A stretch of 34,724 nucleotides of DNA from Candidatus Dormiibacterota bacterium (lineage in GTDB: Bacteria > Chloroflexota > Dormibacteria > Aeolococcales > Aeolococcaceae), in the NCBI GenBank assembly GCA_003132525.1, contig PKXZ01000039.1, positions 9,660 through 44,383 of the forward strand. Reading direction: 5' to 3'. The stretch's first letter is position 1. Each line of letters begins with the position of its first letter. Positions 3,447 to 25,020 of the stretch are shown in pieces. A program made the translations under genes and the position numbers. The notes below the pieces were generated by a model. That model saw nothing but the letters and a program-made list of their open reading frames with translations, made no database searches and was not told the origin of the DNA.

Positions 3447-3460
3447 GCTGCGACTGCCGC

Positions 3461-4939: not shown

Positions 4940-4965
4940 GACCCCATCCTCCAATTTTCCTGGAC

Positions 4966-6896: not shown

Positions 6897-7617
6897 GTAT
6901 CGGCTCCGACACCCGAGGATGCGCGCACTCCGAAGTACGCGGCGGTGATCTGCTCGCGCGAGAGCGCCGACGATGCGCCCTCGAGCACGACCTCGCCGTG
7001 GAGCATGCAGGTCACGCGTGTCGACACGCTGAGCGCCCGGCCGAGATCCTGTTCGACGAGCACCACCGTGGTTCCCCCGCCGATGAGCTCGCGCAGGGAC
7101 TCGTAGACCGCGGCCACCGCCTTGGGCGCGAGGCCGAGCGAGACCTCGTCGAGAAGGATGAGGCGCGGGTTGCACATCAGGGCTCGCCCGATGGCGGTCG
7201 CCTGTTGTTCGCCTCCCGACAGCGTTGCCGCTCGCTGGGTCCGGCGTTGTTGCAGCATCGGGAAGATCGCCAGGACCCGCTCCACGGTCCAGCCGCCGCC
7301 GGGTCGATGGCCGCCGGCGATGCTGAGGTTCTCCTCGACGGTGAGGCCGGGAAACAGCCGTCTGCCCTCCGGAACCAGCGCGATCCCGAGGGCGACGCGC
7401 TTGTGCGCGGGAATCCGGGTGATGTCGACGCCGTCGAAGAACACGGTGCCGGCAGCGGGGCGGTGCGCTCCCGCGATCACACGAAGCAGCGTCGTCTTGC
7501 CGGCGCCGTTGGCGCCGACCAGGGCTCGCGTCTCACCTTCGTCGACGCTGAGCGACACGCCGCGCACCGCCTTCAACAATCCGTACTGCGCGTCGACGGC
7601 GCCGACTTCGAGCAGGC

Positions 7618-7621
<4 letters not shown>
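6893..7621 (-). CDS. livF: Branched-chain-type ABC transporter ATP-binding protein LivF
   Basis: Walker A GANGAGKTTLLR, LSGGEQQATAIGRALM, LILLDEVSLGLAP. GTG start 7621 overlaps the livG stop (GTGA). Confidence 0.92.
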
Positions 7622-8355
<734 letters not shown>

Positions 8356-8367
8356 ACGCGCCCGCCG

Positions 8368-9732: not shown

Positions 9733-9766
9733 GGCTAGCACCCCGCACTACCCGGTTGCAGAAAAT

Positions 9767-9781
9767 GTTCGCATAGCGAAC
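9767..9781. promoter_or_regulatory. Candidate IclR-family (PcaR-like) operator, site 1
   Basis: Perfect inverted repeat GTTCGC-ATA-GCGAAC in the divergent catabolic intergenic region. Confidence 0.65.
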
Positions 9782-9785
9782 CCGC

Positions 9786-9800
9786 GTTCTGTGAATGAAC
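9786..9800. promoter_or_regulatory. Candidate degenerate operator, site 1b
   Basis: GTTC-TGTGAAT-GAAC, same 15-bp span as site 1, centred 19 bp away; inner arms degenerate. Confidence 0.4.
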
Positions 9801-9880
9801 GTAGCATATCTTTGTGAGGGCAGGCAAGTGCGCGAAACCGCCGAGGGCCGCACGAAACCGCTATGGTTGCGACTACGAGT

Positions 9881-9895
9881 GTGCGCTACGCGAAC
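9881..9895. promoter_or_regulatory. Candidate IclR-family (PcaR-like) operator, site 2
   Basis: GTGCGC-TAC-GCGAAC. Its reverse complement ATGTTCGCGTAGCGCAC matches site 1 ATGTTCGCATAGCGAAC at 15 of 17 positions. Confidence 0.62.
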
Positions 9896-9911
9896 ATGTT
9901 GATCTGCGAGC

Positions 9912-10730
9912 ATGGCTGAGATCGTCTCGCTGTCCGACGGCATCGCCGCGGTCGTCCACGATGGCGACACGCTGGTGATGGAGGGATTCACCCATCTCAT
10001 CCCTTTCGCCGCCGGCCACGAGATCATTCGCCAGGGACGTCGCGACCTGACCCTGGTGCGGATGACGCCCGATCTCATCTACGACCAACTGATCGGCATG
10101 GGGTGCGCGTCCAAGCTGATCTTCTCGTGGGGCGGCAACCCGGGAGTTGGATCACTGCACCGGTTCCGCGACGCAGTGGAGAACGCCTGGCCGCTGCCCA
10201 TCGACCTCGAGGAGCACAGCCACGCCGGCATGGCGAACCGGTACCTCGCCGGGGCGAGCGGACTTCCCTTCGCGGTGCTTCGCGGCTATGTCGGCACGGA
10301 CCTCGTGGCGCAGACCGACACCATCCGCTCGATCACGTGTCCCTTCACCGGCGAAGTGCTCACCGCGGTCCCGGCGCTGTCACCCGACGTCACGATCATC
10401 CACGCGCAGCGCGCGGACCGAAAGGGCAACGTGCAGATGTGGGGGATTCTCGGCGTGCAGAAGGAAGCGGTGCTCGCCGCGAAGCGATCCCTGATCACCG
10501 TCGAGGAGATCGTCGATAGCCTCGATCCCCAGCCACAGGAGGTCGTGCTTCCGTCCTTCGCCACCACGTACGTCGCCGTGGCTCCGGGCGGTGCGCACCC
10601 GTCGTATGCGCAGGGATATTCCCTGCGCGACAACGCGTTCTATACAGAGTGGGACGCGATCAGCAAGGACCGCGACACCTTCCTGCGCTGGATGGACGAG
10701 AACGTTATGCGCCGGGCACCGGCGGCGTGA
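9912..10730 (+). CDS. pcaI: 3-oxoadipate CoA-transferase subunit A (CatI / glutaconate CoA-transferase A-like)
   Basis: CoA-transferase I family; VMEGFTHLIPFAAGHEIIRQGRRDLTLVRMTPDLIYD, SWGGNPGVGSLHRFRDAVE; position in the pca operon. Confidence 0.83.
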   Translation: MAEIVSLSDGIAAVVHDGDTLVMEGFTHLIPFAAGHEIIRQGRRDLTLVRMTPDLIYDQLIGMGCASKLIFSWGGNPGVGSLHRFRDAVENAWPLPIDLEEHSHAGMANRYLAGASGLPFAVLRGYVGTDLVAQTDTIRSITCPFTGEVLTAVPALSPDVTIIHAQRADRKGNVQMWGILGVQKEAVLAAKRSLITVEEIVDSLDPQPQEVVLPSFATTYVAVAPGGAHPSYAQGYSLRDNAFYTEWDAISKDRDTFLRWMDENVMRRAPAA

Positions 10731-11488
10731 CCGCCGCATACACCTCCGACGAGATGATGACCGTCGCCGCTGCGCGCCAGCTGCACAACGGCACCGTCTG
10801 CTTCGTCGGCATCGGACTGCCGAGCACCGCGGCGACCCTCGCGCGTGTGACGAGCGCTCCCGACGTGGTGCTGATCTACGAGTCGGGAACGCTCGGCGCC
10901 AAGCCCGCGCGCCTGCCGCTGTCGATCGGCGACGGCATCCTCGCCGAGACGGCGGACGCGGTCGTGAGCGTTCCCGAGGTCTTCAACTACTGGCTGCAGC
11001 CGGGCCGGATCGACGTCGGCTTCCTCAGCGCGGCCCAGATCGACCGCTACGCCAATATCAACACCACAGTGATCGGCTCCGACTACCGCCACCCCAAGGT
11101 CCGGCTCCCGGGTGCGGGAGGCGCTCCCGAGATTGCGGCCTCCTGCCGCGAGGTGGTCGTGGTGCTGCGTCAGACCCTGCGCACGTTCGTCGATCGCGTC
11201 GACTTCATCACGTCAGTCGGCTTCGGACAGGGCCCCGGCGATCGCCAGCGTCTCGGTCTCAGCGGCTCTGGACCACGTGTGGTCATCACCGACTTCGGCA
11301 TCCTGACTCCCGACCCTGAAACCTGCGAGCTCACCCTGGTGAGCGTCCACAACGGGTCGACGGCCGAGGACGCCCGGGCTGCGACCGGCTGGCCACTTGC
11401 GGTATCGCCCGACCTCGCGACCACGGACCCGCCGACGGAGGAGGAGCTCACCGTGCTCCGCCGTCTCGAGGCGACCCAGGGCGCGTGA
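10727..11488 (+). CDS. pcaJ: 3-oxoadipate CoA-transferase subunit B (CatJ / glutaconate CoA-transferase B-like)
   Basis: FVGIGLPSTAATLARVTSAPDVVLIYESGTLGAKP. GTG start overlaps the pcaI stop (GTGA). Confidence 0.85.
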   Translation: MTAAYTSDEMMTVAAARQLHNGTVCFVGIGLPSTAATLARVTSAPDVVLIYESGTLGAKPARLPLSIGDGILAETADAVVSVPEVFNYWLQPGRIDVGFLSAAQIDRYANINTTVIGSDYRHPKVRLPGAGGAPEIAASCREVVVVLRQTLRTFVDRVDFITSVGFGQGPGDRQRLGLSGSGPRVVITDFGILTPDPETCELTLVSVHNGSTAEDARAATGWPLAVSPDLATTDPPTEEELTVLRRLEATQGA

Positions 11489-12669
11489 GCGAGGACGTCT
11501 TCATCCTGGATGCGGTGCGCACGCCGATCGGTCGGCACGGCGGTGCTCTTGCGGGCGTGCGCCCCGACGATCTTGCGGCGGGGGTGATCGGAGCGCTCGT
11601 GCAGCGGAGTCCGAACCTCGACCCCGCGGAAATCGGTGACGTGGTCTTCGGGGACAACAACGGCTCGGGCGAGGACAACCGCAACGTCGCGCGCATGGCG
11701 CTGCTGCTCGCCGGCGTTCCGCCGAGTGTGCCGGGGACGACGGTTAACCGCCTCTGTGGCTCCGGCCTCGAGGCGGTGATCACCGCGAGCCGTGCGATCG
11801 CCGTGGGTGACCACTCCGTGTGCATCGCCGGCGGAGTCGAATCGATGAGCCGCGCGCCGTGGGTGATGCTCAAGCCGGAGCGCGGTTACCCGCGCACCAA
11901 CGAGACCATGTGGTCGACGACGCTCGGGTGGCGCATGGTCAATCCGCGCATGCCGGGGAACTGGACGATCTCGCTCGGCGAGGGCGCGGAGCTGCTGGCA
12001 TCGAAGTACTCGATCAGCCGCGAGGAACAGGACGCGTTCGCGGTGCGCAGTCATCGGCAGGCCGCCGCCGCGTGGGACGTAGGGCGCTACGCCGCCGAGG
12101 TGGTGCCGGTGGAGGGAACCGACCTCGCTCGTGACGAGTGCATCCGCCCGGACAGCACGATCGAAGCGCTTGCCAAGCTGCGTCCGGCATTCCGGCCGGA
12201 CGGCACCGTGACCGCGGGAAACGCATCACCGTTCAACGACGGTGCCGCAGCGGTGCTGATCGGCGATGCCGAGGCCGCGCGGCGGGCAGGTCGCGAGCCG
12301 CTGGCGCGCATCGTCGCCCGTGCCGTCAGCGCGGTTGAGCCGCCGCTCTATGGGATCGGCCCGGTCGCCGCGGCCAACACGGCGCTCCGTCGCGCCGGCA
12401 TCGCATGGAAGGATCTCGCTGTCGTCGAATTGAACGAGGCATTTGCTGCGCAGTCGCTTGCCTGCCTGCGCGACTGGCCCGACCTCGACCCGGAGAAGGT
12501 GAATCCGAACGGTGGCGCGATCGCGATCGGTCATCCCATCGGGTGCTCCGGAGCGCGGATCATCGGTTCGCTCGCGCATGAGTTGCACCGGCGGGGTGGC
12601 GGCTACGGTCTCGCCGCGATCTGCATCGGGGTGGGCCAGGGGCTCGCCGTGGTGCTGAGGGCTGAATGA
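11485..12669 (+). CDS. pcaF: 3-oxoadipyl-CoA thiolase / acetyl-CoA acetyltransferase family
   Basis: VNRLCGSGLEAV (active-site Cys), GGVESMSRAPWV, VELNEAFAAQ, NPNGGAIAIGHPIGCSGARI; GTG start. Confidence 0.92.
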   Translation: MSEDVFILDAVRTPIGRHGGALAGVRPDDLAAGVIGALVQRSPNLDPAEIGDVVFGDNNGSGEDNRNVARMALLLAGVPPSVPGTTVNRLCGSGLEAVITASRAIAVGDHSVCIAGGVESMSRAPWVMLKPERGYPRTNETMWSTTLGWRMVNPRMPGNWTISLGEGAELLASKYSISREEQDAFAVRSHRQAAAAWDVGRYAAEVVPVEGTDLARDECIRPDSTIEALAKLRPAFRPDGTVTAGNASPFNDGAAAVLIGDAEAARRAGREPLARIVARAVSAVEPPLYGIGPVAAANTALRRAGIAWKDLAVVELNEAFAAQSLACLRDWPDLDPEKVNPNGGAIAIGHPIGCSGARIIGSLAHELHRRGGGYGLAAICIGVGQGLAVVLRAE

Positions 12670-13364
12670 CGACATCGTCTCGATCCGTCCATCCGCCCAA
12701 CGACTATCCGGCGTACGGATCAACAGCGCTTCGGGCGCCGAAACAGCCACTGCGTGTGCTCCCGGCGAGACTTGGCGAGCTCACCGCACCATTGCTGGCC
12801 GGCGAGACGATCGGTGCTCTCGACCACGACCTGACCCGGCAGCACGACGCCGACCCGCTCGGCGAGCGGATCAGCATCAGCGGGCGCGTCTTTGACCAGG
12901 ACAGGAACCCCGTCGCCGGCGCGCTCATCGAGGTCTGGCAGGCGAACGCCGCCGGTCGCTACGCGCACCTGTCGGATCAGCACCCCGCACCGCTCGATCC
13001 CAACTTCAGCGGCGCCGGCCGCTGTCTCACCGAGGCTGACGGTGGGTACCGGTTCGTGACCATCAAGCCGGGCGCGTACCCGTGGCGCAACCATCCCAAC
13101 GCTTGGCGGCCGGCGCACGTGCATTTCTCGGTGTTCACGCCCGCAATCGCGCAGCGCCTGGTCACCCAGATGTACTTTCCGGGCGACCCGCTCTTCGATC
13201 AGGACCCGATCTTCAACTCGGTGCCGGACCCGGATGCCCGACAGCGACTCGTCGCGCGGTGGTCGCTCGAGCTCACCGAACCGGAGTGGTCGCTCGGCTA
13301 TGCGTGGGACATCGTGGTGGCGGGGCGTGATGCCACGCCGCTCGACGATGATGGGGCGGAATGA
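12666..13364 (+). CDS. pcaH: Protocatechuate 3,4-dioxygenase beta subunit
   Basis: LIEVWQANAAGRYAH, IKPGAYPWRNHPNAWRPAHVHFSVF, LVTQMYFPGDPLFDQDPI; Tyr/His Fe ligands present. Confidence 0.95.
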   Translation: MTTSSRSVHPPNDYPAYGSTALRAPKQPLRVLPARLGELTAPLLAGETIGALDHDLTRQHDADPLGERISISGRVFDQDRNPVAGALIEVWQANAAGRYAHLSDQHPAPLDPNFSGAGRCLTEADGGYRFVTIKPGAYPWRNHPNAWRPAHVHFSVFTPAIAQRLVTQMYFPGDPLFDQDPIFNSVPDPDARQRLVARWSLELTEPEWSLGYAWDIVVAGRDATPLDDDGAE

Positions 13365-13849
13365 CGCTGCCGCTCACGCCGTCGCAGACCGTCGGGCCGT
13401 TCTTTCGCATCGGGCTCTCGACCACCATCGGATCACACGTCGTCCATGAGGGAATGCCCGGGGCGGTGCGCATCTCGGGCCAGGTGTTCGACGGCGCCGG
13501 TGAACCCGTGCCGGACGCGCTCATCGAGACGTGGCAGCCGGAGGGCGCCGGGCGGTGCGCAACTGACGACGAGGGGCATTTCGCCATCGTCACCATCAAG
13601 CCGGCGCAGGACGGCGGCGCGACGGGCGCGCCGCACCTCGATGTTTCTGTCTTCGCGCGGGGACTGCTCACGCGCCTTGTGACGCGCGTGTATTTTCCCG
13701 ACGAGCACGCCGCGAACGGTGCGGACCCGGTGCTCCGAACCCTCTCTCCCGACGAGTGCTCGACGCTCGTGGCGGTGCGAGAGGAAGGTGGTCTTCGATT
13801 CGACATCCACCTCCAAGGCGCGCGTGAGACTGTCTTCTTCGACCGCTGA
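13361..13849 (+). CDS. pcaG: Protocatechuate 3,4-dioxygenase alpha subunit
   Basis: TPSQTVGPFFRIGL, ALIETWQPEGAGR, APHLDVSVFARGLLTRLVTRVYFPDE; follows pcaH with an ATGA overlap. Confidence 0.94.
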   Translation: MTLPLTPSQTVGPFFRIGLSTTIGSHVVHEGMPGAVRISGQVFDGAGEPVPDALIETWQPEGAGRCATDDEGHFAIVTIKPAQDGGATGAPHLDVSVFARGLLTRLVTRVYFPDEHAANGADPVLRTLSPDECSTLVAVREEGGLRFDIHLQGARETVFFDR

Positions 13850-15182
13850 GGGCATCGTCGATCCCCTCTTCGGCAGCGCCGCGGTGGATGCCGCGGTGAG
13901 CGATGAGGCCTGGCTCCAGGCGATGCTCGACTTCGAAGCGGCGCTGGCCGAGTCGGAAGCGGAAGCCGGGCTCGTTCCGGCACCGCTTGCGGCGGAGATT
14001 GCCGCCGCATGCCGCGCGGAATCCTTTGACATGGCGGAGATCGGACGTCGTGCTGTCGGCTCCGGCAATCCCGCGGCGCCGCTCGTGCGAGTGTTGATGA
14101 ACGCCGTCTCCCCGGCGGCGCGGGAGTACGTCCATCTGGGTGCCACCAGTCAGGACGTCATCGACACAGCGCTGTCGTTGATGGCGCGGCGAGCGCTCGA
14201 CGTGATCCTCGATGACCTGTCCCAGGTGTCGTCTGCCTGCGGGGACCTGATGGAGACGCACGCGCACACGCTCATGACCGCGCGGACGCTGCTGCAGCCG
14301 GCGGTCCCGACGACGCTGGGCTACAAAGCCGCCGGCTGGATGGTCAGCGTCGACGAGGCACGCGTGCTGTTGCGACGTGTGCGCTTCGAACGTCTGGCGG
14401 TGCAGTTCGGCGGCGCGGCGGGAACGCTCGCGTCACTGAAGGGTGCAGGCGTCGACGTCGCGCGACGTCTCGCCACGCGCCTCGGGCTCGGAGATCCCGC
14501 GCTCCCGTGGCACACGGATCGCACCCGCATCGCCGAGCTCGCGGCCGCGCTCGGAACCGCCGTTGGCGTCCTCGGCAAGTTCGCCCGCGACGTCACTCTG
14601 CTCGCCCAATCCGAAGTTGCCGAGGCGGAAGAATCGGAGCCGGGGACGTCGTCGACGTTGCCACAGAAGCGAAACCCGGTACGGGCCGTGCTCATCCTGG
14701 CGGCGGCGGCGCGCGCACCCGGGCTGGTCGGGACGCTGTTCAGCACAATGGTGCAGGAGCACGAGCGCGCCACGGGAGCGTGGCACGCGGAGTGGGATGC
14801 CATCCGCGACCTGCTCCGCATCACGGGCGGCGCAAGTCATCACGCGGCGGCGTTGCTGAGCTCGCTGCAGGTCGAGCCGGCACGCATGGCTGAGAACCTC
14901 GATGCTGACGGCGGCCTGGCGATGGCGGAGCATCTCGCGCTTGAGCTCTCGCGACGCGTGGAACGCGCCACAGCACGCGACATCGTGCGCCGCTGCAGCG
15001 AGGAGTCCATCGAGCGTCATATTCGTTTTGCAGAGGTCGTCCGCGACGATGCCGAGGTGCGTAAGCACCTCTCCGACGAGCAGCTCACCGCGGCGCTCGA
15101 TCCTGCCGGCTATCTCGGGTCGATCGATGAGCTCATCCGCCGCGCGGCAGAGGCGCACAGCGACGCCGGTGTGCAGCGATGA
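13824..15182 (+). CDS. pcaB: 3-carboxy-cis,cis-muconate cycloisomerase
   Basis: Fumarase/aspartase superfamily: HLGATSQDVIDTAL, signature GTSSTLPQKRNPV. Start placed at in-frame GTG 13824 (VRLSSSTAEGIVDPLFGS); the N-terminus of the listed ORF overlaps pcaG. Confidence 0.92.
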   Translation: MRLSSSTAEGIVDPLFGSAAVDAAVSDEAWLQAMLDFEAALAESEAEAGLVPAPLAAEIAAACRAESFDMAEIGRRAVGSGNPAAPLVRVLMNAVSPAAREYVHLGATSQDVIDTALSLMARRALDVILDDLSQVSSACGDLMETHAHTLMTARTLLQPAVPTTLGYKAAGWMVSVDEARVLLRRVRFERLAVQFGGAAGTLASLKGAGVDVARRLATRLGLGDPALPWHTDRTRIAELAAALGTAVGVLGKFARDVTLLAQSEVAEAEESEPGTSSTLPQKRNPVRAVLILAAAARAPGLVGTLFSTMVQEHERATGAWHAEWDAIRDLLRITGGASHHAAALLSSLQVEPARMAENLDADGGLAMAEHLALELSRRVERATARDIVRRCSEESIERHIRFAEVVRDDAEVRKHLSDEQLTAALDPAGYLGSIDELIRRAAEAHSDAGVQR

Positions 15183-15958
15183 GCGTCGAGGTCGCGTTTT
15201 CGTGGATCGGAGATCGTGAGAGGCCGGTGCTGGTGATGAGCAGCGCGCTCGGCACGTCGCGCGCGGTGTGGGACAGCCAGCATTCGCTCGGCGACCAGTA
15301 CTCGCTGCTGCTGTACGACCATCGCGGTCTGGGCGAATCGCCTGCACCACCAGGGCCGTACAGCGTCGCCGAGCTCGGCTCGGACGTCATTGCCCTGCTC
15401 GACAAGCTCGGTCTCACGTCGGTGGCTTTCTGCGGACTCTCGCTGGGGGGGCTGGTGGGACTCTGGCTCGCGGCACATCATCCGTCGCGCATCAGCACGC
15501 TCATCGCGATGGCCTCGCTCTCACGCCTTCAGCCGGCGGATCGATATGTCGAGCGCGCTGCCGCAGTCCGAGCGGACGGCATCGAGCCGGTTGCGTCAGG
15601 CGTTGCTGCCCGCTGGTTCACGCCGCACTTCGCCCAGGAGCATCCGTCGACGCTGCGGCGATTCACGGATGCGCTGGCGGGCATGAGCGCCGAAGGCTAC
15701 GCGAGTTGCTGCGAGGCGATCGCGACCTGTGACCTGCGCACTCATATACGCAAGATCCATGCGCGAACGCTGATCATCGCCGGCGCTGACGATCCGGTCG
15801 TCCCAGCCGCGAGCGCGATCATGTTCGGCGCGTCGCTCCGCGATGGGAGCGTGGCGGTGGTTCCCGATGCGGCGCACCTGATGAACGTCGAGCAGCCGGA
15901 GATCGTCAATCGACTGGTGCTCCAGCATCTCGAAGAACCCGATGGAGGAGTGGTGTGA
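15179..15958 (+). CDS. pcaD: 3-oxoadipate enol-lactonase (alpha/beta hydrolase)
   Basis: YDHRGLGESPAPPGPYSVAELG, FCGLSLGGLVGLWLA (nucleophile elbow), AGADDPVVP, AHLMNVEQP. Confidence 0.92.
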   Translation: MSVEVAFSWIGDRERPVLVMSSALGTSRAVWDSQHSLGDQYSLLLYDHRGLGESPAPPGPYSVAELGSDVIALLDKLGLTSVAFCGLSLGGLVGLWLAAHHPSRISTLIAMASLSRLQPADRYVERAAAVRADGIEPVASGVAARWFTPHFAQEHPSTLRRFTDALAGMSAEGYASCCEAIATCDLRTHIRKIHARTLIIAGADDPVVPAASAIMFGASLRDGSVAVVPDAAHLMNVEQPEIVNRLVLQHLEEPDGGVV

Positions 15959-16347
15959 GCGACGACATTCGAGAGCAGGGGATGACCACTCGGCGCGAGG
16001 TTCTCGGCGACGAGCACGTGGACCGCGCCATGACGGGTGCCGACGCGTTCACCACCGACTTTCAGGAGTTCATCACGCGCTCCGTCTGGGGGGAGATCTG
16101 GTCGCGCCCAGGGCTCGACCGGCGCACGCGCAGCTGCATCACCATCGCCATGCTGGCCGCTCAGGGCATGGAGCACGAGCTCGCGCTCCACCTGCGTGCC
16201 GCGCGGCGCAACGGTATCAGCGTCGACGAGATCAAGGAAGTCCTGCTTCAGGTTGCGGCGTACGCGGGTGTCCCGCGGGCAAACCGCGCGTTCAGCATCG
16301 CTCGAGACGTGCTGTCCGAGCCCGAGTCGACCACGGAACCGACGTGA
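15955..16347 (+). CDS. pcaC: 4-carboxymuconolactone decarboxylase
   Basis: REVLGDEHVDRAM, FQEFITRSVWGEIWSRPGLDRRTRSCITIAMLAA, EIKEVLLQVAAYAGVPRANRAF. Confidence 0.95.
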   Translation: MSDDIREQGMTTRREVLGDEHVDRAMTGADAFTTDFQEFITRSVWGEIWSRPGLDRRTRSCITIAMLAAQGMEHELALHLRAARRNGISVDEIKEVLLQVAAYAGVPRANRAFSIARDVLSEPESTTEPT

Positions 16348-17162
16348 CCGACATCGATCAACCGCCGGTCGCGCGCGTCGATCGCGGCATCGGCACCGAC
16401 TTCGTGCAGTCGCTGGAGCGCGGGCTCGCGGTCATCCGTGCCTTCGACGCGGAACACCCGGAGCTCACGCTCAGTGAGGTCGCGCGCGCGGCGGGGTTGA
16501 CACGCGCATCGGCTCGGCGATTCCTGCGCACGCTGTCCGAACTCGGCTACGTGCGCAGCAATGGACGGCTCTTCGCGCTGCGTCCGCGCGTGCTGGAGCT
16601 CGGCTATGCGTACCTCTCCAGTCTCAGCCTGCACGAGGTGGCCCAGCCGCATCTCGAACGGCTCGTGGGCATCCTTCGAGAATCGTCGTCGATCTCGGTG
16701 CTCGATGCCGATGACGTCGTCTACGTCGCCCGCGTGCCCACACGCAGGATCATGACGATCACCATCAGCGTCGGCACCCGGTTCCCGGCATATGCGACAT
16801 CGATGGGGCGTGTCCTCCTTGCCGGTCAGAGTGATGACTGGCTCGACGGGTATTTCGCGACAGTCGAGCTGCGGCGGCTTACCGCCCGTACTGTCACCGA
16901 CGTCCCGGCGTTGCGCGCGGAGCTCCTCCTGGTGCGCGACCAGGGGTGGGCGTTCGTCGACGAGGAGCTGGAGGAGGGGCTGCGGGCCATCGCCGCACCG
17001 ATCAATGACTCGTCGGGACGGGTGATCGCCGCGGTCAACGTCTCGTCACCGGTGAGCCGTGGGAGCGCCGACTTGGTGCGTGGCGAGTTCCTGCCGCACC
17101 TGCTTGCCGCCGCACGTGGGATCGAGGAGGATCTGAGTCACAGCGCGAGCGGGTCGCGCTGA
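16344..17162 (+). CDS. IclR-family transcriptional regulator (PcaR/PcaU-like)
   Basis: FVQSLERGLAVIRAFDAEHPELTLSEVARAAGLTRASARRFLRTLSELGYV (wHTH) and IclR effector domain. GTG start 16344 overlaps the pcaC stop; the track ORF start at 15942 is upstream read-through. Confidence 0.93.
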   Translation: MTDIDQPPVARVDRGIGTDFVQSLERGLAVIRAFDAEHPELTLSEVARAAGLTRASARRFLRTLSELGYVRSNGRLFALRPRVLELGYAYLSSLSLHEVAQPHLERLVGILRESSSISVLDADDVVYVARVPTRRIMTITISVGTRFPAYATSMGRVLLAGQSDDWLDGYFATVELRRLTARTVTDVPALRAELLLVRDQGWAFVDEELEEGLRAIAAPINDSSGRVIAAVNVSSPVSRGSADLVRGEFLPHLLAAARGIEEDLSHSASGSR

Positions 17163-17187: not shown

Positions 17188-17886
17188 ATGCCTGTCACGC
17201 ACGTCGGCGGCATCGACATGTACTACGAGCTGCACGGGGCCGGTGAACCGCTCGTGTTGATCGGCGGACTGGGCAGTGACATCTCGCGATGGGCCTCGAT
17301 CACGGACTGGTGTGCCCAGACGCACCACGTGCTCGCTTTCGACAACCGCGGCGCGGGCCGCACCGACAAGCCGGATGCCCCGTACACGATCCCGATGATG
17401 GCCAACGACACCGATGGGCTCATGGAGACGGTCGGCATGTCACACGCAACGATCCTTGGCATCTCGATGGGTGGCCGGGTGGCTCTGGACCTCGCGCTCG
17501 AGCACCCGAATCGCGTCGCGCGACTCATCCTCGTGAGCACCATGGCGTCGGCGAGACCGCTCACGTCCATGACGCGCATGGAGATGCTCGGCGCCTTGTC
17601 AAACCTGATATTCCGAGGCAAGCATCCGCAGCCCCGCTACGCGTTCGAGCGGCAGCGTGAAGCGTCGCGGTCCTACGATTGTGTGGAGCGCCTGAGTGAG
17701 ATCCGCGTCCCGACGACCATCCTGCACGGACGCAGAGACAAGATTGCCCCGCTGCGTGAGGCCGAGCGGATGCGGCGGGAGATCACCGGATCGACCCTGG
17801 TGACATTCAGCCGCGGGCACCTCTTCTTCATGCGCGAGCGCAAGTGGTTCTTCGACAGCGTGACCACCGCGATGCAGGCGGACTGA
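17188..17886 (+). CDS. Alpha/beta hydrolase
   Basis: FDNRGAGRTDKP, ILGISMGGRVALDLA, HGRRDKIAP. Confidence 0.85.
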   Translation: MPVTHVGGIDMYYELHGAGEPLVLIGGLGSDISRWASITDWCAQTHHVLAFDNRGAGRTDKPDAPYTIPMMANDTDGLMETVGMSHATILGISMGGRVALDLALEHPNRVARLILVSTMASARPLTSMTRMEMLGALSNLIFRGKHPQPRYAFERQREASRSYDCVERLSEIRVPTTILHGRRDKIAPLREAERMRREITGSTLVTFSRGHLFFMRERKWFFDSVTTAMQAD

Positions 17887-17887
17887 T

Positions 17888-17900
17888 CGGGCTCAGCCCG
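17888..17900. terminator. Compact hairpin over convergent gene ends
   Basis: CGGGC-TCA-GCCCG (CGGGCT-C-AGCCCG), spanning the minus-strand fused-gene stop (TCA 17893-17895, rest in stem) 2 nt after the alpha/beta hydrolase stop. Confidence 0.45.
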
Positions 17901-20256
17901 GCCGCCAGCGGCTGTGGCGTGTCCGCGCCGCACCCTCGCGGATGAGCTGGAGCCTGGGTTTCGGACCGTCGGTGCGACCGCCCTGGGGCTTGCGGCTGCC
18001 GGCCTTGAATGGATCAGGCCATTCGGCACCAGGTCCGAAGTAGCCCTGGTCGGCCGCTGCGTGCAGCGTCCACTGCGGATCGTAGAGGTGCGCGCGAGCG
18101 AGCGCGCAGAGGTCGGCCCGGCCCGCGAGGACCAGTGAGTTCACGTCGTCGTACGACGAGATCACGCCCACCGCGATGGTCGCGATGCGGACCTCGTTGC
18201 GAATGCGATCCGCGTACGGCGTCTGGTACGAACGGCCGAACGCCGGCTGCTCATCCTTGGTCACCTGGCCCGTCGACACGTCGATGGCATCGGCGCCGTG
18301 CTCCGCAAACGCGCGGGCGATCGCAACGGCATCGTCGCCATCGTTGCCGCCGGGGTACCAGTCGGTGGCGGAGATGCGCACCGTCATCGGCTTGTGCGCC
18401 GGCCACACCGCGCGCGCCGCGTCAAAGACCTCGAGTGGGAAACGCATGCGGTTGTCGAGCGAACCGCCGTACGCGTCGGATCGTTGATTCGAGATCGGCG
18501 AGATGAAGCTCGAGAGGAGATACCCGTGTGCGCAGTGCAGCTCGAGGAGATCGAACCCGGCGCGCTCACCGGCCTCCGCCGCACGGACGAACTCCTCGCG
18601 GATCTGCGCCATCTCGTTGCCGGTAAGCTCGTGCGGGACCTGGTTGGCGGGTGAATATCGAATCGGTGAGGGCGCCACGACCTCCCAGTTGTCCTCCGGC
18701 AGCGGCTCGTCCGTGCCCTCCCACATCAGCCGCGTCGACCCCTTGCGCCCGGAGTGCCCGAGCTGGAGCCCGACGCGCGCGCTGGTTCGGTCGTGCACGA
18801 AGTCAACGATTCGCCTCCAGCCGGACTCGTGCTCGGGTGCGTACATCCCGGCGCAGCCCGGCGTGATCCTACCTGTCTCGGAGACGCAGACCATCTCGGT
18901 CATCACCAGCGCCGCTCCGCCGAGTGCCTTGCTCCCGGTGTTCACGAGATGAAAATCGTTGGGCATGCCATCGACTGCCGAGTACATGTCCATCGCCGAC
19001 ACGATGACCCGGTTCTTCAGCTCGAGGTCACGCAGCCGGAAGGGCTCGAACATCGGTGGTGTCACCGTTTCGGCGTCGCGTGGCTGGAGTGCGTCGACCT
19101 GGCTCGCGAACCAGGCATCGACGTCACGCACGAATTCCGGGTCGCGGAGACGCAGGTTGTCATATGTGACCCGGCGGCTCCGGGTCAGGATGTTGAACGC
19201 GAACTGCATCGGTTCCTGGTGGACGTACTGGCCGAGATTCTCGAACCATTCGAGGCTCGCCTGGGCAGCGCGTTGTGTCGACACCACAATGGGTTTCCGC
19301 TCCGCCTCGTACGCATCGAGCGCGACGGCGACGCTCTGGTTCTCGTGCAGGCACGCGGCAAGCGCAAGTGCGTCCTCCATGGCGAGCTTCGTGCCGGACC
19401 CGATCGAGAAATGCGCGGTGTGCGCGGCGTCACCGAGGATCACGACGTTGCCGTGATGCCAGCACTCGTTGCGCACCGTGGTGAAGCTGATCCAGTTCGA
19501 GTTGTTCGCATATATCGCGTGATCACCGAGGATCGGAGCGAACAGCGTGCGGATCTCGGCGATGCTCGCGACATCGCTCTCGCCGGGAGCGAGTCCGCGG
19601 TGATCAAGCGCTTCGAACCCGGCGTTGCGCCAGACCTCGTCGTTCATCTCCACGATGAACGTGCTCCCCGCGGCGTCATACGGGTATCCGTGGATCTGCA
19701 TGATCCCCTGCGGCGTCTCGACGATGTAGAACTTGAAGGCGTCGAACACGAGGTCGGTCCCGAGCCACATGAACTTGCAGCGGCGCACATCGAGGCTCGG
19801 GCGAAACGTCTCCGCGTACCGGCTCCGTATCGTCGAGTTGACGCCATCGGCGCCCACCACGAGGTCGTGCGTCTGAGCAAGCGCGCCGGCGTCGGGAGCC
19901 TCGGTGTTGAATCGCAGCGTTACCCCGAGCTCGAGACAGCGGCCCTGCAGGATCTGGAGCAGGCGTTTACGGCTCATCGCGGCGAAACCGTGACCACCCG
20001 ATGTGATCACCCGTCCTCGGTAATGGATATCGATGTCATCCCACCTGGCGAACTCACGCGACATCGCCTCATGGATCGCCGGGTCGGCGTGCTCGATGCC
20101 CCCGAGCGTCTCGTCGGAGAAGACGACGCCAAAGCCGAAGGTGTCGTCGTCCGAGTTGCGTTCCCAGACCGTGATCTCGTGCCCTGGATCGAGCTGTTTG
20201 GTGAGCGCCGCGAAGTACAGTCCGCCCGGCCCGCCCCCGACAACCGCAATTCGCAT
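17893..20256 (-). CDS. Bifunctional flavoenzyme: N-terminal salicylyl-CoA 5-hydroxylase-like FAD monooxygenase fused to C-terminal OYE/NADH:flavin oxidoreductase (2-aminobenzoyl-CoA monooxygenase/reductase-like)
   Basis: MRIAVVGGGPGGLYFAALTKQ, DGVNSTIR, LGDAAHTAHFSIGSGTKLAMEDA; then PPMFEPFRLRDLELKNRVIVSAMDMYS and ELHCAHGYLLSSFISPISNQRSDAYGGSLDNRMRFPLEVF. Start placed at ATG 20256. Confidence 0.92.
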   Translation of the reverse strand: MRIAVVGGGPGGLYFAALTKQLDPGHEITVWERNSDDDTFGFGVVFSDETLGGIEHADPAIHEAMSREFARWDDIDIHYRGRVITSGGHGFAAMSRKRLLQILQGRCLELGVTLRFNTEAPDAGALAQTHDLVVGADGVNSTIRSRYAETFRPSLDVRRCKFMWLGTDLVFDAFKFYIVETPQGIMQIHGYPYDAAGSTFIVEMNDEVWRNAGFEALDHRGLAPGESDVASIAEIRTLFAPILGDHAIYANNSNWISFTTVRNECWHHGNVVILGDAAHTAHFSIGSGTKLAMEDALALAACLHENQSVAVALDAYEAERKPIVVSTQRAAQASLEWFENLGQYVHQEPMQFAFNILTRSRRVTYDNLRLRDPEFVRDVDAWFASQVDALQPRDAETVTPPMFEPFRLRDLELKNRVIVSAMDMYSAVDGMPNDFHLVNTGSKALGGAALVMTEMVCVSETGRITPGCAGMYAPEHESGWRRIVDFVHDRTSARVGLQLGHSGRKGSTRLMWEGTDEPLPEDNWEVVAPSPIRYSPANQVPHELTGNEMAQIREEFVRAAEAGERAGFDLLELHCAHGYLLSSFISPISNQRSDAYGGSLDNRMRFPLEVFDAARAVWPAHKPMTVRISATDWYPGGNDGDDAVAIARAFAEHGADAIDVSTGQVTKDEQPAFGRSYQTPYADRIRNEVRIATIAVGVISSYDDVNSLVLAGRADLCALARAHLYDPQWTLHAAADQGYFGPGAEWPDPFKAGSRKPQGGRTDGPKPRLQLIREGAARTRHSRWRPG

Positions 20257-20311
20257 GTGAGTCTGGGCGCAACTGTAAAGTGTGGAACGTCGTGAATGTG
20301 GCGTCCTCAGC

Positions 20312-21073
20312 ATGCCTGCATCGATCTACTTCGCCGATCTGACCTCGCCGCGCGCGAGGGCGCTGCTCGACAGCGGCCCGGTGCCGGTGCTGCTCCTGCC
20401 CGTCGGCGCGGTGGAGCCGCACGGTCCGCACGCGCCGCTGGGCACCGACTCGGTCATCTCCGCTGCGATCTGCAAACACGCGGCCTTGTCGCTCGGCGAC
20501 GACCCCACCGTGCGTGCATTCGTGCTTCCCGAGATCGCCTACGGCGTCACCAGGTATTCGGCGGCGTTCACCGGCGCGATCACGATCAGCGAGGGCACGC
20601 TGCACGCGATGGTCGTCGAGGTCTGCGCGTCGCTGCGCGCCCAGGGCTTCGGTCACCTGGTGATCGTCAACAGTCACTTCGAGCCGGCCCACGTCGCCAC
20701 GCTGCGAAAGGCTGCCGAGGACGCGGGGGTGGGATTCCTCGACGTCACCCGACGGGCAGTTGCCGAGCAGCTGACCGCGGAGTTCCAGCGGGGGGCTGCC
20801 CACGCGGGGCGTTATGAGACCTCCCTGGTGCTCTCGAGCCGCCCCGAGCTGGTGGAGGCGGAGACCATGCGTCGCCTGCCCGCCTATGAGCTGGACATGC
20901 CAGCCGCGATGGCGGCCGGGCAGACGGATTTCCTCGCCATGGGCATGGACCGCGCCTACTGCGGCGCGCCGGCCGAGGCGACCGCCGCCGAGGGTGAGGA
21001 GACACTGGCGACGCTGAGCCGCCTCCTGGTGGACCTCATCCGCGAGCGGGTCCAGGCCACGATCCGGACGTGA
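20312..21073 (+). CDS. Creatininase-family amidohydrolase
   Basis: VLLLPVGAVEPHGPHAPLGTDS, IVNSHFEPAH, HAGRYETSLVL. Start placed at ATG 20312 (MPASIY). Confidence 0.85.
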   Translation: MPASIYFADLTSPRARALLDSGPVPVLLLPVGAVEPHGPHAPLGTDSVISAAICKHAALSLGDDPTVRAFVLPEIAYGVTRYSAAFTGAITISEGTLHAMVVEVCASLRAQGFGHLVIVNSHFEPAHVATLRKAAEDAGVGFLDVTRRAVAEQLTAEFQRGAAHAGRYETSLVLSSRPELVEAETMRRLPAYELDMPAAMAAGQTDFLAMGMDRAYCGAPAEATAAEGEETLATLSRLLVDLIRERVQATIRT

Positions 21074-22650
21074 GCGCCGTCGGTGAGCGGTCGAGGCTGA
21101 ACCTGGCCACCGCGTTCCTTGACCGCAACGTTGCCGAGGGGCGGGGACAGCGAACCGCGCTCACCGGTCCCGCGGGCAGTTGCACCTACGCCGAGCTCGC
21201 CGATCTCAGCAACCGGATCGGCAACGCGCTCCTCGAGCTCGGCGTCAGGCCGCAGGAGCGGGTGCTCCTTGCTCTCACCGATTCCATCGAGTTCGTTGCC
21301 ACCTGGTACGCGGTCCAGAAGATCGGGGCCGTGACCGCCGAGGTGTACACGTTCCTCCAGCCGAAGGACTACGCCTACTACCTCGACTACACGGCCGCGA
21401 CGGTCGTCGTCGTGGACGGGGTCACGCTCGAGCGCGTGCGGGAGGCATGGCTTGGAAGCCGTGCACGACCGACTCTGTTGATCGTCGGCGCTCGCGACGC
21501 GGAGCTGCGCGATGGCGAGGTCGCATTCGATGCCGTGGTCTCGCGCCAGCCGGCAGTTCTCGAGGCTGCGCCCGCGACGCCGGGCGACATCGCGATCTGG
21601 AAGTTCACCACCGGCAGCACGGGCAAGCCGAAGGCCTGTGTGCACACGGCTCGGAGCCCGCTCTTCAGCTATGAGGCCTACGCGCGCGGTGTGCTCGACA
21701 TCCGTGCCGGCGACGTCGTGCTCCCTGTGCCCAAGCTGTTCTTCGGGTATGCGCGCGATCTCGCCGCGATGTTTCCCTTCGGCGTCGGCGCCACCGGGGT
21801 GATCTTCGCGGAGCGCACCACGCCCGAGCTGCTCTTCGAGCTGATCGCGACGCACCGGCCGTCGATCCTCGTCAACGTGCCCACGATGATGCAGGCGATG
21901 CTCGATCACCCGAGCGCCGCGACCCAGGACCTGAGCTGCCTCCGCCTCTGCACGTCCGCCGGCGAGGCACTCCCCGAGCCGCTCCATCACCGCTGGGACG
22001 ATGCGTTCGGCGTCGAGGTGCTCGACGGCATCGGATCCTCGGAGGCGTACCACATCTACATCTCCAACCGGCCCGGTCGCGTCCGCCCGGGAAGCATCGG
22101 AGAGGTCGTTCCCGGGTACGAGGGCCTGGTGGTCGACGATGATGGCCGTCCACTCCCCGACGGGGAGACCGGCCGGCTCTGGATTCGTGGGGAGAGCGCA
22201 GCGCTGATGTACTGGGAGGACGCCGAGGCATCGGCGGGCACCTTCGCCGATGGGCTCGTGATGAGCGGCGACCTCGTGGAGCGCGATGCAACCGGTTTCT
22301 TCGCATACCGCGGACGAGCTGACGACCTGCTCAAGGTCGGTGGCATCTGGGTGGCGCCCGCGGAGATCGAGCGCTGCCTCGCGGGCCATCCAGGCGTGGT
22401 CGAGTGCGCGGTGGTCGCGGCCGAGCGCGACGGGCTCACGTTCGGCCTGGCCTGGGTGGTGTTGTCGGCAAGCTCGGCGGTCACTCCTGAGGAGTTGCGG
22501 GCTTTCGTGCGCGAGCGTCTCTCGCCGCACAAGGTCCCGCGCGAGGTGCGCGTCGTCGCCGGGCTCCCCCGTACCGGCTCGGGCAAGGTCGATCGCAGCG
22601 CCCTGCGCGGGCTCGCGCCCGCTGGCGAGATCGGAGGCGGTCAGGGTTGA
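21070..22650 (+). CDS. Benzoate-CoA ligase family protein (2-aminobenzoate/benzoate-CoA ligase-like)
   Basis: AMP-binding motif KFTTGSTGKPKACVH; benzoate-CoA-ligase-like VPKLFFGYARDL; GIGSSEAYHIYISN; YRGRADDLLKVGGIWVAPAEIE; GSGKVDR. GTG start with GTGA overlap. Confidence 0.9.
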   Translation: MSAVGERSRLNLATAFLDRNVAEGRGQRTALTGPAGSCTYAELADLSNRIGNALLELGVRPQERVLLALTDSIEFVATWYAVQKIGAVTAEVYTFLQPKDYAYYLDYTAATVVVVDGVTLERVREAWLGSRARPTLLIVGARDAELRDGEVAFDAVVSRQPAVLEAAPATPGDIAIWKFTTGSTGKPKACVHTARSPLFSYEAYARGVLDIRAGDVVLPVPKLFFGYARDLAAMFPFGVGATGVIFAERTTPELLFELIATHRPSILVNVPTMMQAMLDHPSAATQDLSCLRLCTSAGEALPEPLHHRWDDAFGVEVLDGIGSSEAYHIYISNRPGRVRPGSIGEVVPGYEGLVVDDDGRPLPDGETGRLWIRGESAALMYWEDAEASAGTFADGLVMSGDLVERDATGFFAYRGRADDLLKVGGIWVAPAEIERCLAGHPGVVECAVVAAERDGLTFGLAWVVLSASSAVTPEELRAFVRERLSPHKVPREVRVVAGLPRTGSGKVDRSALRGLAPAGEIGGGQG

Positions 22651-23474
22651 CTCGATTCCGGGCATCCGCCGGGTTCACCGAAAGCTGGCAGCACTTCGAC
22701 TTCGGCATCGCCGACGGCGTGGCCACGGTCAGGCTGGCGCGTCCCGAGAAGCTCGGTGCCCTGACCTTCGACGTCTACGCGGACCTCCGCGACCTGCTCA
22801 CCGAACTGCCTCACCGTGGCGACGCCCGGGTCGTGGTGATCACCGGATCCGGCCGGGGGTTCTGCTCGGGCGGTGACGTCGTCGAGATCATCGGCGCCCT
22901 GCAGTCGATGCAGGCCGCTGACCTGCTCGAGTTCACGCGCATGACCGGATCGGTCGTCCGGGCGCTTCGCGAGTGCCCGCTCCCGGTGATCGCCGCGGTC
23001 AACGGCATCGCCGCAGGCGCCGGTGCGGTGATCGCGCTCGCCGCGGACATCCGTCTCCTGGCGCGATCCGCGCGCTTCGCCTTCCTGTTCACCAAGGTCG
23101 GCCTGGCGGGCGCGGACATGGGCTCCGCATACCTGTTGCCGCGGGTGATCGGCTTCGGACGCGCCAGCGAGCTGCTCCTGCTCGGAGACACCGTCGGTGC
23201 CGACCGCGCCCTCGAGATCGGGCTGGCGACCGCCGTCGTGGACGACGACGAGCTCCCGGAGGCTGCGATGACCATGGCTCGGCGGCTTGCCGACGGGCCG
23301 GCGCTCGCCTACTCCACGACCAAGGTGCTGCTCACCCGAGAGCTCGACATGGGCTTGAGCGGCTCGCTCGAGCTGGACGCCATGACCCAGGCGCTGCTCA
23401 TGGGCAGCCACGACCATGCTGAATACCACCGCGCCTGGACCGAGGGGCGGGCCCCCGTCTGGGAGGGCCGATGA
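22647..23474 (+). CDS. Enoyl-CoA hydratase/isomerase family protein
   Basis: GRGFCSGGDVVEI, AAVNGIAAGAGAVIALAADIRL, KVGLAGADMGSAYLLPRVIG. TTG start with TTGA overlap. Confidence 0.9.
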   Translation: MTRFRASAGFTESWQHFDFGIADGVATVRLARPEKLGALTFDVYADLRDLLTELPHRGDARVVVITGSGRGFCSGGDVVEIIGALQSMQAADLLEFTRMTGSVVRALRECPLPVIAAVNGIAAGAGAVIALAADIRLLARSARFAFLFTKVGLAGADMGSAYLLPRVIGFGRASELLLLGDTVGADRALEIGLATAVVDDDELPEAAMTMARRLADGPALAYSTTKVLLTRELDMGLSGSLELDAMTQALLMGSHDHAEYHRAWTEGRAPVWEGR

Positions 23475-23878
23475 GCCACGCCGAGCACGAGATCGTCACC
23501 GCGGCCGATCTCCCGGCCCCGATCGGCTACGCGCACGCGGTGATCGCCGCGCCCGGCCGGACCGTCTACCTCGGTGGTCAGACCGCTCAGGCCGCAGACG
23601 GAGCGATCTTCGGCACGACCATCGTCGAGCAGTTCGACCTTGCCGCGCGCAACCTCGTTGCCGCGCTCCAGGCGGCCGGGGGACAGCCGGACGACCTCGT
23701 CTCGCTGCAGATCTTCGTGACCGACATCGCGGCATACCGCGCTTCGATGAAAGAGCTGGGAAGTGTCTGGCGCACCCATTTCAGGCGCCGCTACCCCGCC
23801 ATGGCAGCGATCGGGGTCGCGGAGCTCTTCGACCCGACCGCCATGGTCGAGCTCGTCGGTGTCGCCGTGATCCCGTGA
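23471..23878 (+). CDS. RidA/YjgF/Rid family protein (putative enamine/imine deaminase)
   Basis: VYLGGQTAQAADGAIFGTTIVEQFDLAARNLVAALQAAGGQPDDLVSLQIFVTDIAAYR, RRRYPAMAAIGVAELFDPTAMVELVGVAVIP. Confidence 0.9.
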   Translation: MSHAEHEIVTAADLPAPIGYAHAVIAAPGRTVYLGGQTAQAADGAIFGTTIVEQFDLAARNLVAALQAAGGQPDDLVSLQIFVTDIAAYRASMKELGSVWRTHFRRRYPAMAAIGVAELFDPTAMVELVGVAVIP

Positions 23879-25020
23879 GCGCGACCTACGCGCACCTGAC
23901 CGCAGCCCATCGCGACCTGCTTGCCCGGAGCGAGACCCTGGCTCGAAATGTGCTGGCGCCGATCGCGCACGCCGGTGACCCCGGCCGGGTCAACCGCGAC
24001 CTGGTCGCCGCCCTCTCCACGCACGGCCTCGTTCCCGAGGTGCTCGAACGCGGCCGCGAGGTCCCTGCGCTGACCCTCTGCCTGGTTCGCGAGGGCCTGG
24101 CGCGGTATTCGACCGCAGCGGAGACCGCCTTTGCCCTGCAGGGACTCGGCGCCCATCCGATCCTGGTGGCCGGTCGCCCGGAGGTGGTCGACCGCTGGAT
24201 CCCCAGGGTCGCCTCGGGTGAAGCCGTCGCCGCCTTCGCCCTCACCGAGCCGGACGCGGGGTCAGACGTTGCCGCCCTGACGCTGTCCGCCGAGCGCGAC
24301 GGCGACGGCTTCCGCCTCACCGGCGAGAAGGTGTTCATCTCCAATGCGCCGGACGCGGACATCTACACGGTCTTTGCGCGCACCACGCCGGGAGCGGGCG
24401 CCAGGGGCATCACGGCGTTCGCGGTTCCTCGGGACAGTCCGGGGCTCTCCGGTGAAGCGATCCCGTTTGTCGCCGACCACCCGATCGGACGGCTCCACTT
24501 CGACGGCGTTGCCCTGCCCGCCGAGAACGTGATCGGCGAGGTCGACCACGGGTTCGGGGTCGCGATGCGAACTCTCGACCTGTTCCGTCCCAGCGTCGGC
24601 GCGTGCGCCGTGGGGATGGCCCAGGCTGCGCTCGACGCAGCGGTAGCCCACGCAGCCGAACGCCAGGCATTCGGCAAGCCGCTCTCAGCGCTGCAGGGCG
24701 TGACCCATCCGCTTGCAGACGTGGCGACCCGCGTCCAGGCCTCGCGGCTCCTGGTCCATTCGGCGGCGGCCGCGCATGACGCCGGTATCACCCCGAACAC
24801 CGAGGCTGCGGCAATGGCGAAGCTCTTCGCCACCGAGAGCGCGATGTTCGCCATCGACGTGGCGATCCAGGTGCACGGCGCACGCGCTCTCGAACGCGGA
24901 CACCTCCTCGAGCACCTCTACCGCGACGTGCGCGGGACCCGTATCTACGAAGGGGCTTCTGAGGTGCAGCGCGAGATCATCGCGCGTCAACTGTTCCGCC
25001 GGGCCGGTCGCGGATCATGA
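23875..25020 (+). CDS. Acyl-CoA dehydrogenase
   Basis: FALTEPDAGSDVAAL, GEKVFISNAPDADIYTVFART, YRDVRGTRIYEGASEVQREIIARQLF. GTG start 23875 overlaps the RidA stop; the 23416 track start is out-of-frame read-through of upstream genes. Confidence 0.93.
   Translation: MSATYAHLTAAHRDLLARSETLARNVLAPIAHAGDPGRVNRDLVAALSTHGLVPEVLERGREVPALTLCLVREGLARYSTAAETAFALQGLGAHPILVAGRPEVVDRWIPRVASGEAVAAFALTEPDAGSDVAALTLSAERDGDGFRLTGEKVFISNAPDADIYTVFARTTPGAGARGITAFAVPRDSPGLSGEAIPFVADHPIGRLHFDGVALPAENVIGEVDHGFGVAMRTLDLFRPSVGACAVGMAQAALDAAVAHAAERQAFGKPLSALQGVTHPLADVATRVQASRLLVHSAAAAHDAGITPNTEAAAMAKLFATESAMFAIDVAIQVHGARALERGHLLEHLYRDVRGTRIYEGASEVQREIIARQLFRRAGRGS

Follow-up and report, generated by a model that had tools for sequence, protein, structure and literature searches.

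A six-gene cluster predicted to encode an aerobic CoA-dependent anthranilate pathway in a Dormibacteria genome

We analysed a 34,724-nucleotide stretch (the window) of contig PKXZ01000039.1 (assembly GCA_003132525.1, positions 9,660 to 44,383), which belongs to a metagenome-assembled genome (3.2 Mb, 88% complete) of Candidatus Dormiibacterota, phylum Chloroflexota. Our subject is a group of six genes, all intact, that fill positions 17893-25020 (Table 1). A fused flavin adenine dinucleotide (FAD) monooxygenase/old yellow enzyme (OYE) reductase, hereafter the fusion, lies on the minus strand and is divergent from a five-gene operon on the plus strand encoding a creatininase-family hydrolase (CREA), an aryl-coenzyme A (CoA) ligase (LIG), a crotonase-fold enzyme (ECH), a Rid-family protein (RID) and an acyl-CoA dehydrogenase (ACAD), in this order. 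A gap of 55 bp separates the fusion from the operon, and all four junctions within the latter are 4-bp overlaps (21070-21073, 22647-22650, 23471-23474 and 23875-23878). This tightly overlapped arrangement had already been described from the letters alone (the sequence-only reading) and we found it as described, with its end at 25020 exact and the family labels of all six genes backed by curated hidden Markov models (HMMs). For the fusion, a start at 20256 rather than 20313 is the most likely, since its Rossmann motif MRIAVVGGGPGG opens with M20; the ATG of CREA is at 20312. Scanning the divergent region for promoters and terminators returned nothing, including no sigma-70-like site. Two genomes of the same genus have the identical gene set and order, with 77-92% identity for the six genes, and the set was also found, rearranged, in several phyla; given this recurrence, the grouping exceeds chance.

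Table 1. Features of the cluster, in window coordinates, with the basis of each assignment.
Feature	Position	Strand	Basis
Fused FAD monooxygenase/OYE reductase, ACMR type	17893..20256	-	NF006101; 65-72% identity to actinobacterial fusions; tree
Divergent intergenic region, 55 bp	20257..20311	.	Sequence, promoter scan
Creatininase-family hydrolase CREA, predicted N-formylkynurenine formamidase	20312..21073	+	PF02633, metal residues, fusion linkage, tree
Aryl-CoA ligase LIG, predicted anthranilate-CoA ligase	21070..22650	+	TIGR02262, PDB matches
Crotonase-fold enzyme ECH (PRK08258), predicted ring-opening hydrolase or isomerase	22647..23474	+	NF006107, residues
Rid-family protein RID without Arg105, predicted deaminase of the fusion product	23471..23878	+	PF01042, residues
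Acyl-CoA dehydrogenase ACAD	23875..25020	+	PF00441

The fusion matched NF006101 with 1235 bits (cut-off 1078), covering positions 1-765 of 768, and contains the domains PF01494 and PF00724. A single chain of about 770-790 amino acids joining FAD monooxygenase and OYE reductase is the architecture of the 2-aminobenzoyl-CoA monooxygenase/reductase (ACMR). Its closest functionally anchored relative, 67% identical, is encoded on pAL1 of Arthrobacter sp. Rue61a (locus L070), in a cluster that includes a Rid gene. The ligase adjoining the Rue61a fusion is a verified anthranilate-CoA ligase, and Rue61a cells on anthranilate contained anthraniloyl-CoA, a presumed hydroxyanthraniloyl-CoA and a C7H8O4-CoA ester for which the authors suggested a cyclohexanedione-carboxyl-CoA (PMC3534580). 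By analogy with this homologous system, LIG would convert anthranilate to anthraniloyl-CoA and the fusion, by homology, would hydroxylate and reduce the ring to the enamine 2-amino-5-oxocyclohex-1-ene-1-carbonyl-CoA; the first two steps of the Azoarcus evansii 2-aminobenzoate CoA pathway have been summarised (PMC4539516). LIG itself belongs to the benzoate-CoA-ligase family (TIGR02262, 460 bits, cut-off 375) and matched both benzoate-CoA ligase (PDB 2v7b, 3.7e-114) and anthranilate-CoA ligase (4wv3, 2.9e-98). It is only 31-37% identical to the ligases of other Chloroflexota fusion clusters and has a 48% match in the ligase of a Gemmatimonadota tryptophan operon described below; the operon context favours anthranilate as its predicted substrate.

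Related fusions adjoin kynureninase and tryptophan 2,3-dioxygenase (TDO) in Rhodococcus NJ-530, kynureninase only in Arthrobacter ERGS1:01, and the quinolone-degradation gene aqdC1 in R. erythropolis BG43, each of which could plausibly supply anthranilate. The window genome encodes TDO and kynureninase next to each other, on another contig (C63). In the fusion tree, the window protein falls in a 23-row set of Rid-linked fusions (support 95) that includes the Rue61a protein and leaves the gentisate-linked rows outside. This tree, built by a quick method, nests it among Actinomycetota fusions (97 with three actinobacterial rows) and away from the other fusions of its own phylum, which suggests that the gene was acquired by lateral transfer.

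We sampled gene linkage in 80 fusion loci from named genomes, compared by tblastn with the cluster proteins; 55 of them were fully flanked, having 7.5 kb or more of sequence on either side of the fusion. In 49 of the 55, a Rid gene lay no more than 10 kb from the fusion, which bears out the association of Rid with such fusions that the sequence-only reading had proposed to check by synteny. The background is about 0.03 Rid genes per 22 kb (118 genes in ~99 Mb from 23 genomes); these genomes come mostly from the window phylum and the linkage loci mostly from actinobacteria, which is a minor reservation beside the thirtyfold gap. Four of the six Rid-less loci (L173, L179, L183 and L193) carry a gentisate 1,2-dioxygenase, and a gene resembling it occurs in a single one of the 49 Rid-bearing loci (L115, 31% match), an alternation with Fisher p = 2e-4, uncorrected for ancestry. 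Judged by their genes, the gentisate-dioxygenase loci appear to be a nitrogen-free salicylate variant.

These clusters, together with the NCBI name of NF006101, 'salicylyl-CoA 5-hydroxylase', are what could recommend a salicylate-CoA to gentisate hybrid pathway for the window, the second of two substrates offered by the sequence-only reading. We consider it highly improbable and dropped it: gentisate-type clusters share the HMM family of the fusion and have gentisate dioxygenase without Rid, whereas the window cluster carries Rid, lacks gentisate dioxygenase, fumarylacetoacetate hydrolase (FAH) and thioesterase, and has a fusion that groups with the Rid-linked proteins. The first substrate, anthranilate, is upheld by the Rue61a homology and the presence of Rid, and we are confident that the cluster encodes an aerobic CoA-dependent anthranilate pathway rather than a salicylate one. 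The NF006101 name probably does not fit most of the members we saw, and checking loci for Rid and gentisate dioxygenase would help to correct it. A second fusion clade was also seen (L053-L063 and L069; ~720 amino acids, 45-49% identity, under the family cut-off), mostly accompanied by crotonase and Rid; an adjacent CoA ligase was not found at these loci, and their substrate may differ.

RID (PF01042, 7e-19, 68 bits, cut-off 27.3) is not a canonical member of its family. We aligned 133 fusion-linked Rid proteins, using as a residue ruler the E. coli RidA sequence, whose Arg105 and Glu120 match the numbering in PMC4433059. Arginine is absent from position 105 in 133/133 (Met in 110, Ser, Thr, Ile or Leu in the rest), and Glu120 is kept in 133/133; in the window protein, YPAM replaces the YPAR of the PDB alignments and Glu120 is retained. 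Of 18 alignable Rid proteins that these genomes encode without linkage to the fusion, 14 have Arg105. The linked proteins thus appear from their residues to be a distinct group and not RidA proper, and with Arg105 missing throughout, the activity of RidA cannot simply be borrowed for them. The earlier proposal of RidA as the deaminase therefore survives for a Rid protein and falls for RidA itself.

We think it probable that this protein deaminates the fusion product. As comparative genomics and the in vivo metabolite of Rue61a suggest, the Arg105-less Rid would hydrolyse the enamine, releasing ammonia and leaving 2,5-dioxocyclohexane-1-carbonyl-CoA. Rid accompanies both of the alternative downstream modules described below, so that it most likely acts before they diverge, a place that fits deamination of the fusion product. 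Two points count against this assignment. Arg105, described as binding the substrate carboxylate, is reported to be essential for imine hydrolysis, and the Rid4-7 subfamilies lacking it are regarded as probably not imine hydrolases (PMC4433059); and two of the Rid-less fully flanked fusion loci (L174 and L192) have no recognised pathway genes. A reader could conclude that Rid is no pathway enzyme but has a protective or other role, the enamine being hydrolysed either without a catalyst or by a different enzyme: the arginine is missing in every linked protein, Arg105-less subfamilies are regarded as probable non-deaminases (PMC4433059), and the fusion product is reported to be unstable below pH 5 (PMC3534580). 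We find this rather unlikely, at about one chance in a few, in view of the very frequent linkage to the fusion and its loss in nitrogen-free gentisate clusters, the invariant Glu120, and the existence of Rid-family pathway deaminases. Among the latter, 2-aminomuconate deaminase (AmnE) and RutC show the Rid fold at work as a catabolic enamine deaminase (PMC6742747, PMC8113886). The arginine would be dispensable in the linked Rid proteins because it binds a free carboxylate, which a CoA thioester masks, so that its loss is what we would expect for such a substrate. AmnE retains Arg117, which we take to be the Arg105 position, whereas the window-type Rid lacks the arginine and has a CoA thioester as its proposed substrate.

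ECH matched NF006107/PRK08258 (385 bits, cut-off 330), and its closest solved structure, 3g64, is labelled only as a putative enoyl-CoA hydratase. That label, also given by the sequence-only reading, did not hold. The window protein has Val128 and Phe148 at the positions of the two glutamates of E. coli PaaF, and 103/103 linked crotonases lack both; a hydratase function is unlikely for this reason. Asp157, in a DMG motif aligned with an Asp of E. coli PaaG, is invariant in the same 103. Ring opening by this enzyme is about an even call on its residues and context: it would attack the beta-keto thioester by retro-Claisen hydrolysis and give 4-oxopimeloyl-CoA, with isomerase as the alternative role. 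The proposed reaction, in which water opens the ring of a beta-keto cyclohexane thioester, would parallel that of the BadI-type ring hydrolases, which also have the crotonase fold. ACAD would then begin the oxidation of 4-oxopimeloyl-CoA; it matched PF00441 (1.2e-46) and other acyl-CoA dehydrogenase families, and its closest NCBIfam models, acryloyl-CoA reductase and cyclohexane-1-carbonyl-CoA dehydrogenase, are both far under cut-off.

Rid-bearing fusion clusters have either a crotonase (with or without ACAD) module (31) or a cupin/FAH module (19), never both (0), and in 6 cases neither. The Rue61a cluster, which shares the fusion, ligase and Rid with the window, is of the second type: FAH, a small cupin and a TesB-like thioesterase replace crotonase and dehydrogenase (L070:7998-10297), as they do in many actinobacterial clusters. 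It has no CREA homologue, and a plasmid search with CREA gave no match. In cupin/FAH clusters, C-C hydrolysis by the FAH-family protein could be an alternative ring-opening step.

CREA (PF02633, 2.5e-50, 171.6 bits, cut-off 31.3) stays under the curated equivalog cut-offs of MftE (107 of 172 bits), creatininase proper (80 of 235) and IolN (49 of 245). It retains Glu35, His37, Asp46, His122 and Glu124; in pathway-linked copies the first four are invariant and position 124 is Glu or Asp, as against Gly or Ser in most other sampled creatininase homologues. In the CREA tree, the pathway-linked copies fall in one supported 26-row set, apart from the remaining creatininases and together with homologues of family f46 and one other protein; the two pathway-linked groups are not sister. 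The f46 homologues (L108-L112) were uninformative, their loci having a conserved hydrolase-like neighbour and no anthranilate genes seen.

Orthologues of CREA (64-88% identity) occurred in 5 of 400 genomes of the phylum, all in the family of the window organism and all adjoining the fusion. In Gemmatimonadota, one fusion cluster (L191) carries a homologue (42%), and a search of 298 genomes found ~70 more. In the named-genome sample, CREA is present in 1/80 fusion loci. The usual Gemmatimonadota order is a ligase on the opposite strand followed by CREA, a short-chain dehydrogenase/reductase, Rid, ECH, ACAD, fusion, TDO and a kynureninase-like gene. Of 41 loci read, several of which end at contig ends, 27 have TDO and 25 the kynureninase-like gene. 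L191, L255, L262, L282 and about 30 further loci hold a tryptophan operon in one place; we know of no earlier description of such a one-locus Gemmatimonadota operon leading from tryptophan to CoA esters. TDO occurs in 69/71 CREA-bearing and 118/227 other Gemmatimonadota genomes (p = 2e-14, uncorrected for ancestry) and in 5/5 CREA-bearing genomes of the window family. One member of that family (G127) has CREA-LIG-ECH-Rid-ACAD on one strand and, on the other, the kynureninase-like gene together with TDO and the fusion. The kynureninase-like gene of Gemmatimonadota and G127 (e.g., L191:13066-14256 and L035:6699-7835) adjoins TDO, is missed by TIGR01814 and has a weak KYNU_C match; we treat this divergent protein as a candidate kynureninase only. 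Relative to the kynA-kynB-kynU route, then, TDO and kynureninase (or its likeness) are shared, in Gemmatimonadota and G127 within the same cluster, whereas KynB, of the cyclase family, was not seen in the cluster and a creatininase homologue stands there instead.

In the Gemmatimonadota operon, N-formylkynurenine deformylation is the only step from tryptophan to anthraniloyl-CoA lacking another candidate, and CREA may on this ground be a kynurenine formamidase rather than a ring opener, a proposal to which we give even chances. TDO would produce N-formylkynurenine, CREA would take off the formyl group, and kynureninase would release anthranilate. The creatininase family includes one experimentally known formamidase, BrbF, which acts in a riboflavin pathway and hydrolyses a formamide on a ring amine, the kind of reaction proposed for CREA on a different substrate (PMC9478397). 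In favour of the proposal, too, the window genome has TDO and kynureninase but gave no match to a KynB model search.

Several observations weigh against this proposal. In the window genus, CREA stays beside the lower-pathway genes and is unlinked from TDO and kynureninase, and in L291 (genome G471) TDO is not nearby and CREA shares 4 bp with the fusion. TDO-bearing, CREA-less members of the family (G231, G045, G054, G063 and G371) are likewise without a KynB match, so that the lack of a recognised formamidase is not confined to genomes with CREA. We set aside KynB displacement as proof: among 63 genomes searched, strong matches were scarce in both groups (4/25 with CREA, about 10/38 with TDO and no CREA) and hence show no clear anti-correlation. 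The CREA metal cluster does not discriminate amide from C-C hydrolysis, and the co-occurrence statistics given here leave shared ancestry uncorrected.

Two other functions for CREA were weighed. As a metal-dependent C-C hydrolase it would open 2,5-dioxocyclohexane-1-carbonyl-CoA, the crotonase acting as isomerase. Its match to IolN (3.7e-13), a 3-dehydro-scyllo-inosose hydrolase that by name opens a diketo-cyclohexane, points this way, as does its linkage to the fusion and not to TDO in the window genus and L291; the IolN match is far under the curated cut-off, clusters with Rid, crotonase and dehydrogenase manage without CREA, and in L260, a locus without the lower-pathway genes, CREA remains with TDO, KynU and ligase. 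We judge this unlikely. As a universal ring opener CREA was dropped, since most fusion clusters lack it; the sequence-only reading, which had named creatininase or crotonase for ring opening, probably misplaced the former, mostly found travelling with TDO and the kynureninase-like gene, and the latter, which lacks the hydratase glutamates and alternates with the cupin/FAH module, appears the better candidate. CREA could also be a BrbF-like riboflavin formamidase, an MftE-like peptidase or an amidase freeing anthranilate from conjugates. MftE is its best NCBIfam match, although under cut-off, and BrbF illustrates the breadth of the family; the specific linkage of CREA to anthranilate clusters, seen in two phyla, argues otherwise, mycofactocin or riboflavin genes were not recognised in the loci read, and we put this at roughly the same low probability as C-C hydrolysis. 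In L291 (6489-14745), the fusion and CREA are followed by hydantoinase/oxoprolinase-like genes and a ligase, with no Rid or TDO nearby; this cluster possibly serves another amide- or imide-bearing aromatic substrate.

Overall, we slightly favour the view that the cluster encodes an aerobic CoA-dependent anthranilate pathway in a Chloroflexota form, with tryptophan breakdown supplying anthranilate as a waste product; all functions beyond the first two steps (ligase and fusion) are inferred from sequence and gene context. That an Arg105-less Rid deaminates a CoA-thioester enamine, as the missing third step in several phyla, and that a creatininase-family kynurenine formamidase completes the tryptophan operon in Gemmatimonadota and this Chloroflexota family, is as a joint proposition tentative and somewhat doubtful. 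To our knowledge, no enzymes have been assigned since 2001 to the steps after the fused flavoenzyme. The comparison names testable candidates, the Rid group for deamination and a misannotated crotonase for ring opening, and predicts a new kind of kynurenine formamidase in the creatininase family. The pathway type itself is already known. As far as the searchable literature shows, the following is new: Rid alternates with gentisate dioxygenase, the linked Rid proteins uniformly lack Arg105 and the linked crotonases the hydratase glutamates, two downstream modules exclude each other, and CREA forms part of a tryptophan operon.

Rid within an anthranilate cluster is probably not new, since the Azoarcus evansii abm clusters described by Schuhle and colleagues in 2001 reportedly list a 'putative translation inhibitor protein'; 'translation inhibitor' is an old name of the YjgF/Rid family. 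The abm clusters resemble the window in having a ligase, a fused monooxygenase/reductase and beta-oxidation-type enzymes, whereas the window operon has no 3-hydroxyacyl-CoA dehydrogenase, MarR or ABC genes and adds CREA.

Directly upstream of the cluster, the window holds a pob/pca 4-hydroxybenzoate/protocatechuate cluster (2271-17162) with pobA, a pcaF-like thiolase, pcaH, pcaG, pcaB, pcaD, pcaC and a PcaR-type regulator; products of the anthranilate pathway could enter via its 3-oxoadipyl-CoA thiolase. A PcaD-type alpha/beta hydrolase (17188-17886) adjoins the 3' end of the fusion and is kept in the two same-genus genomes.

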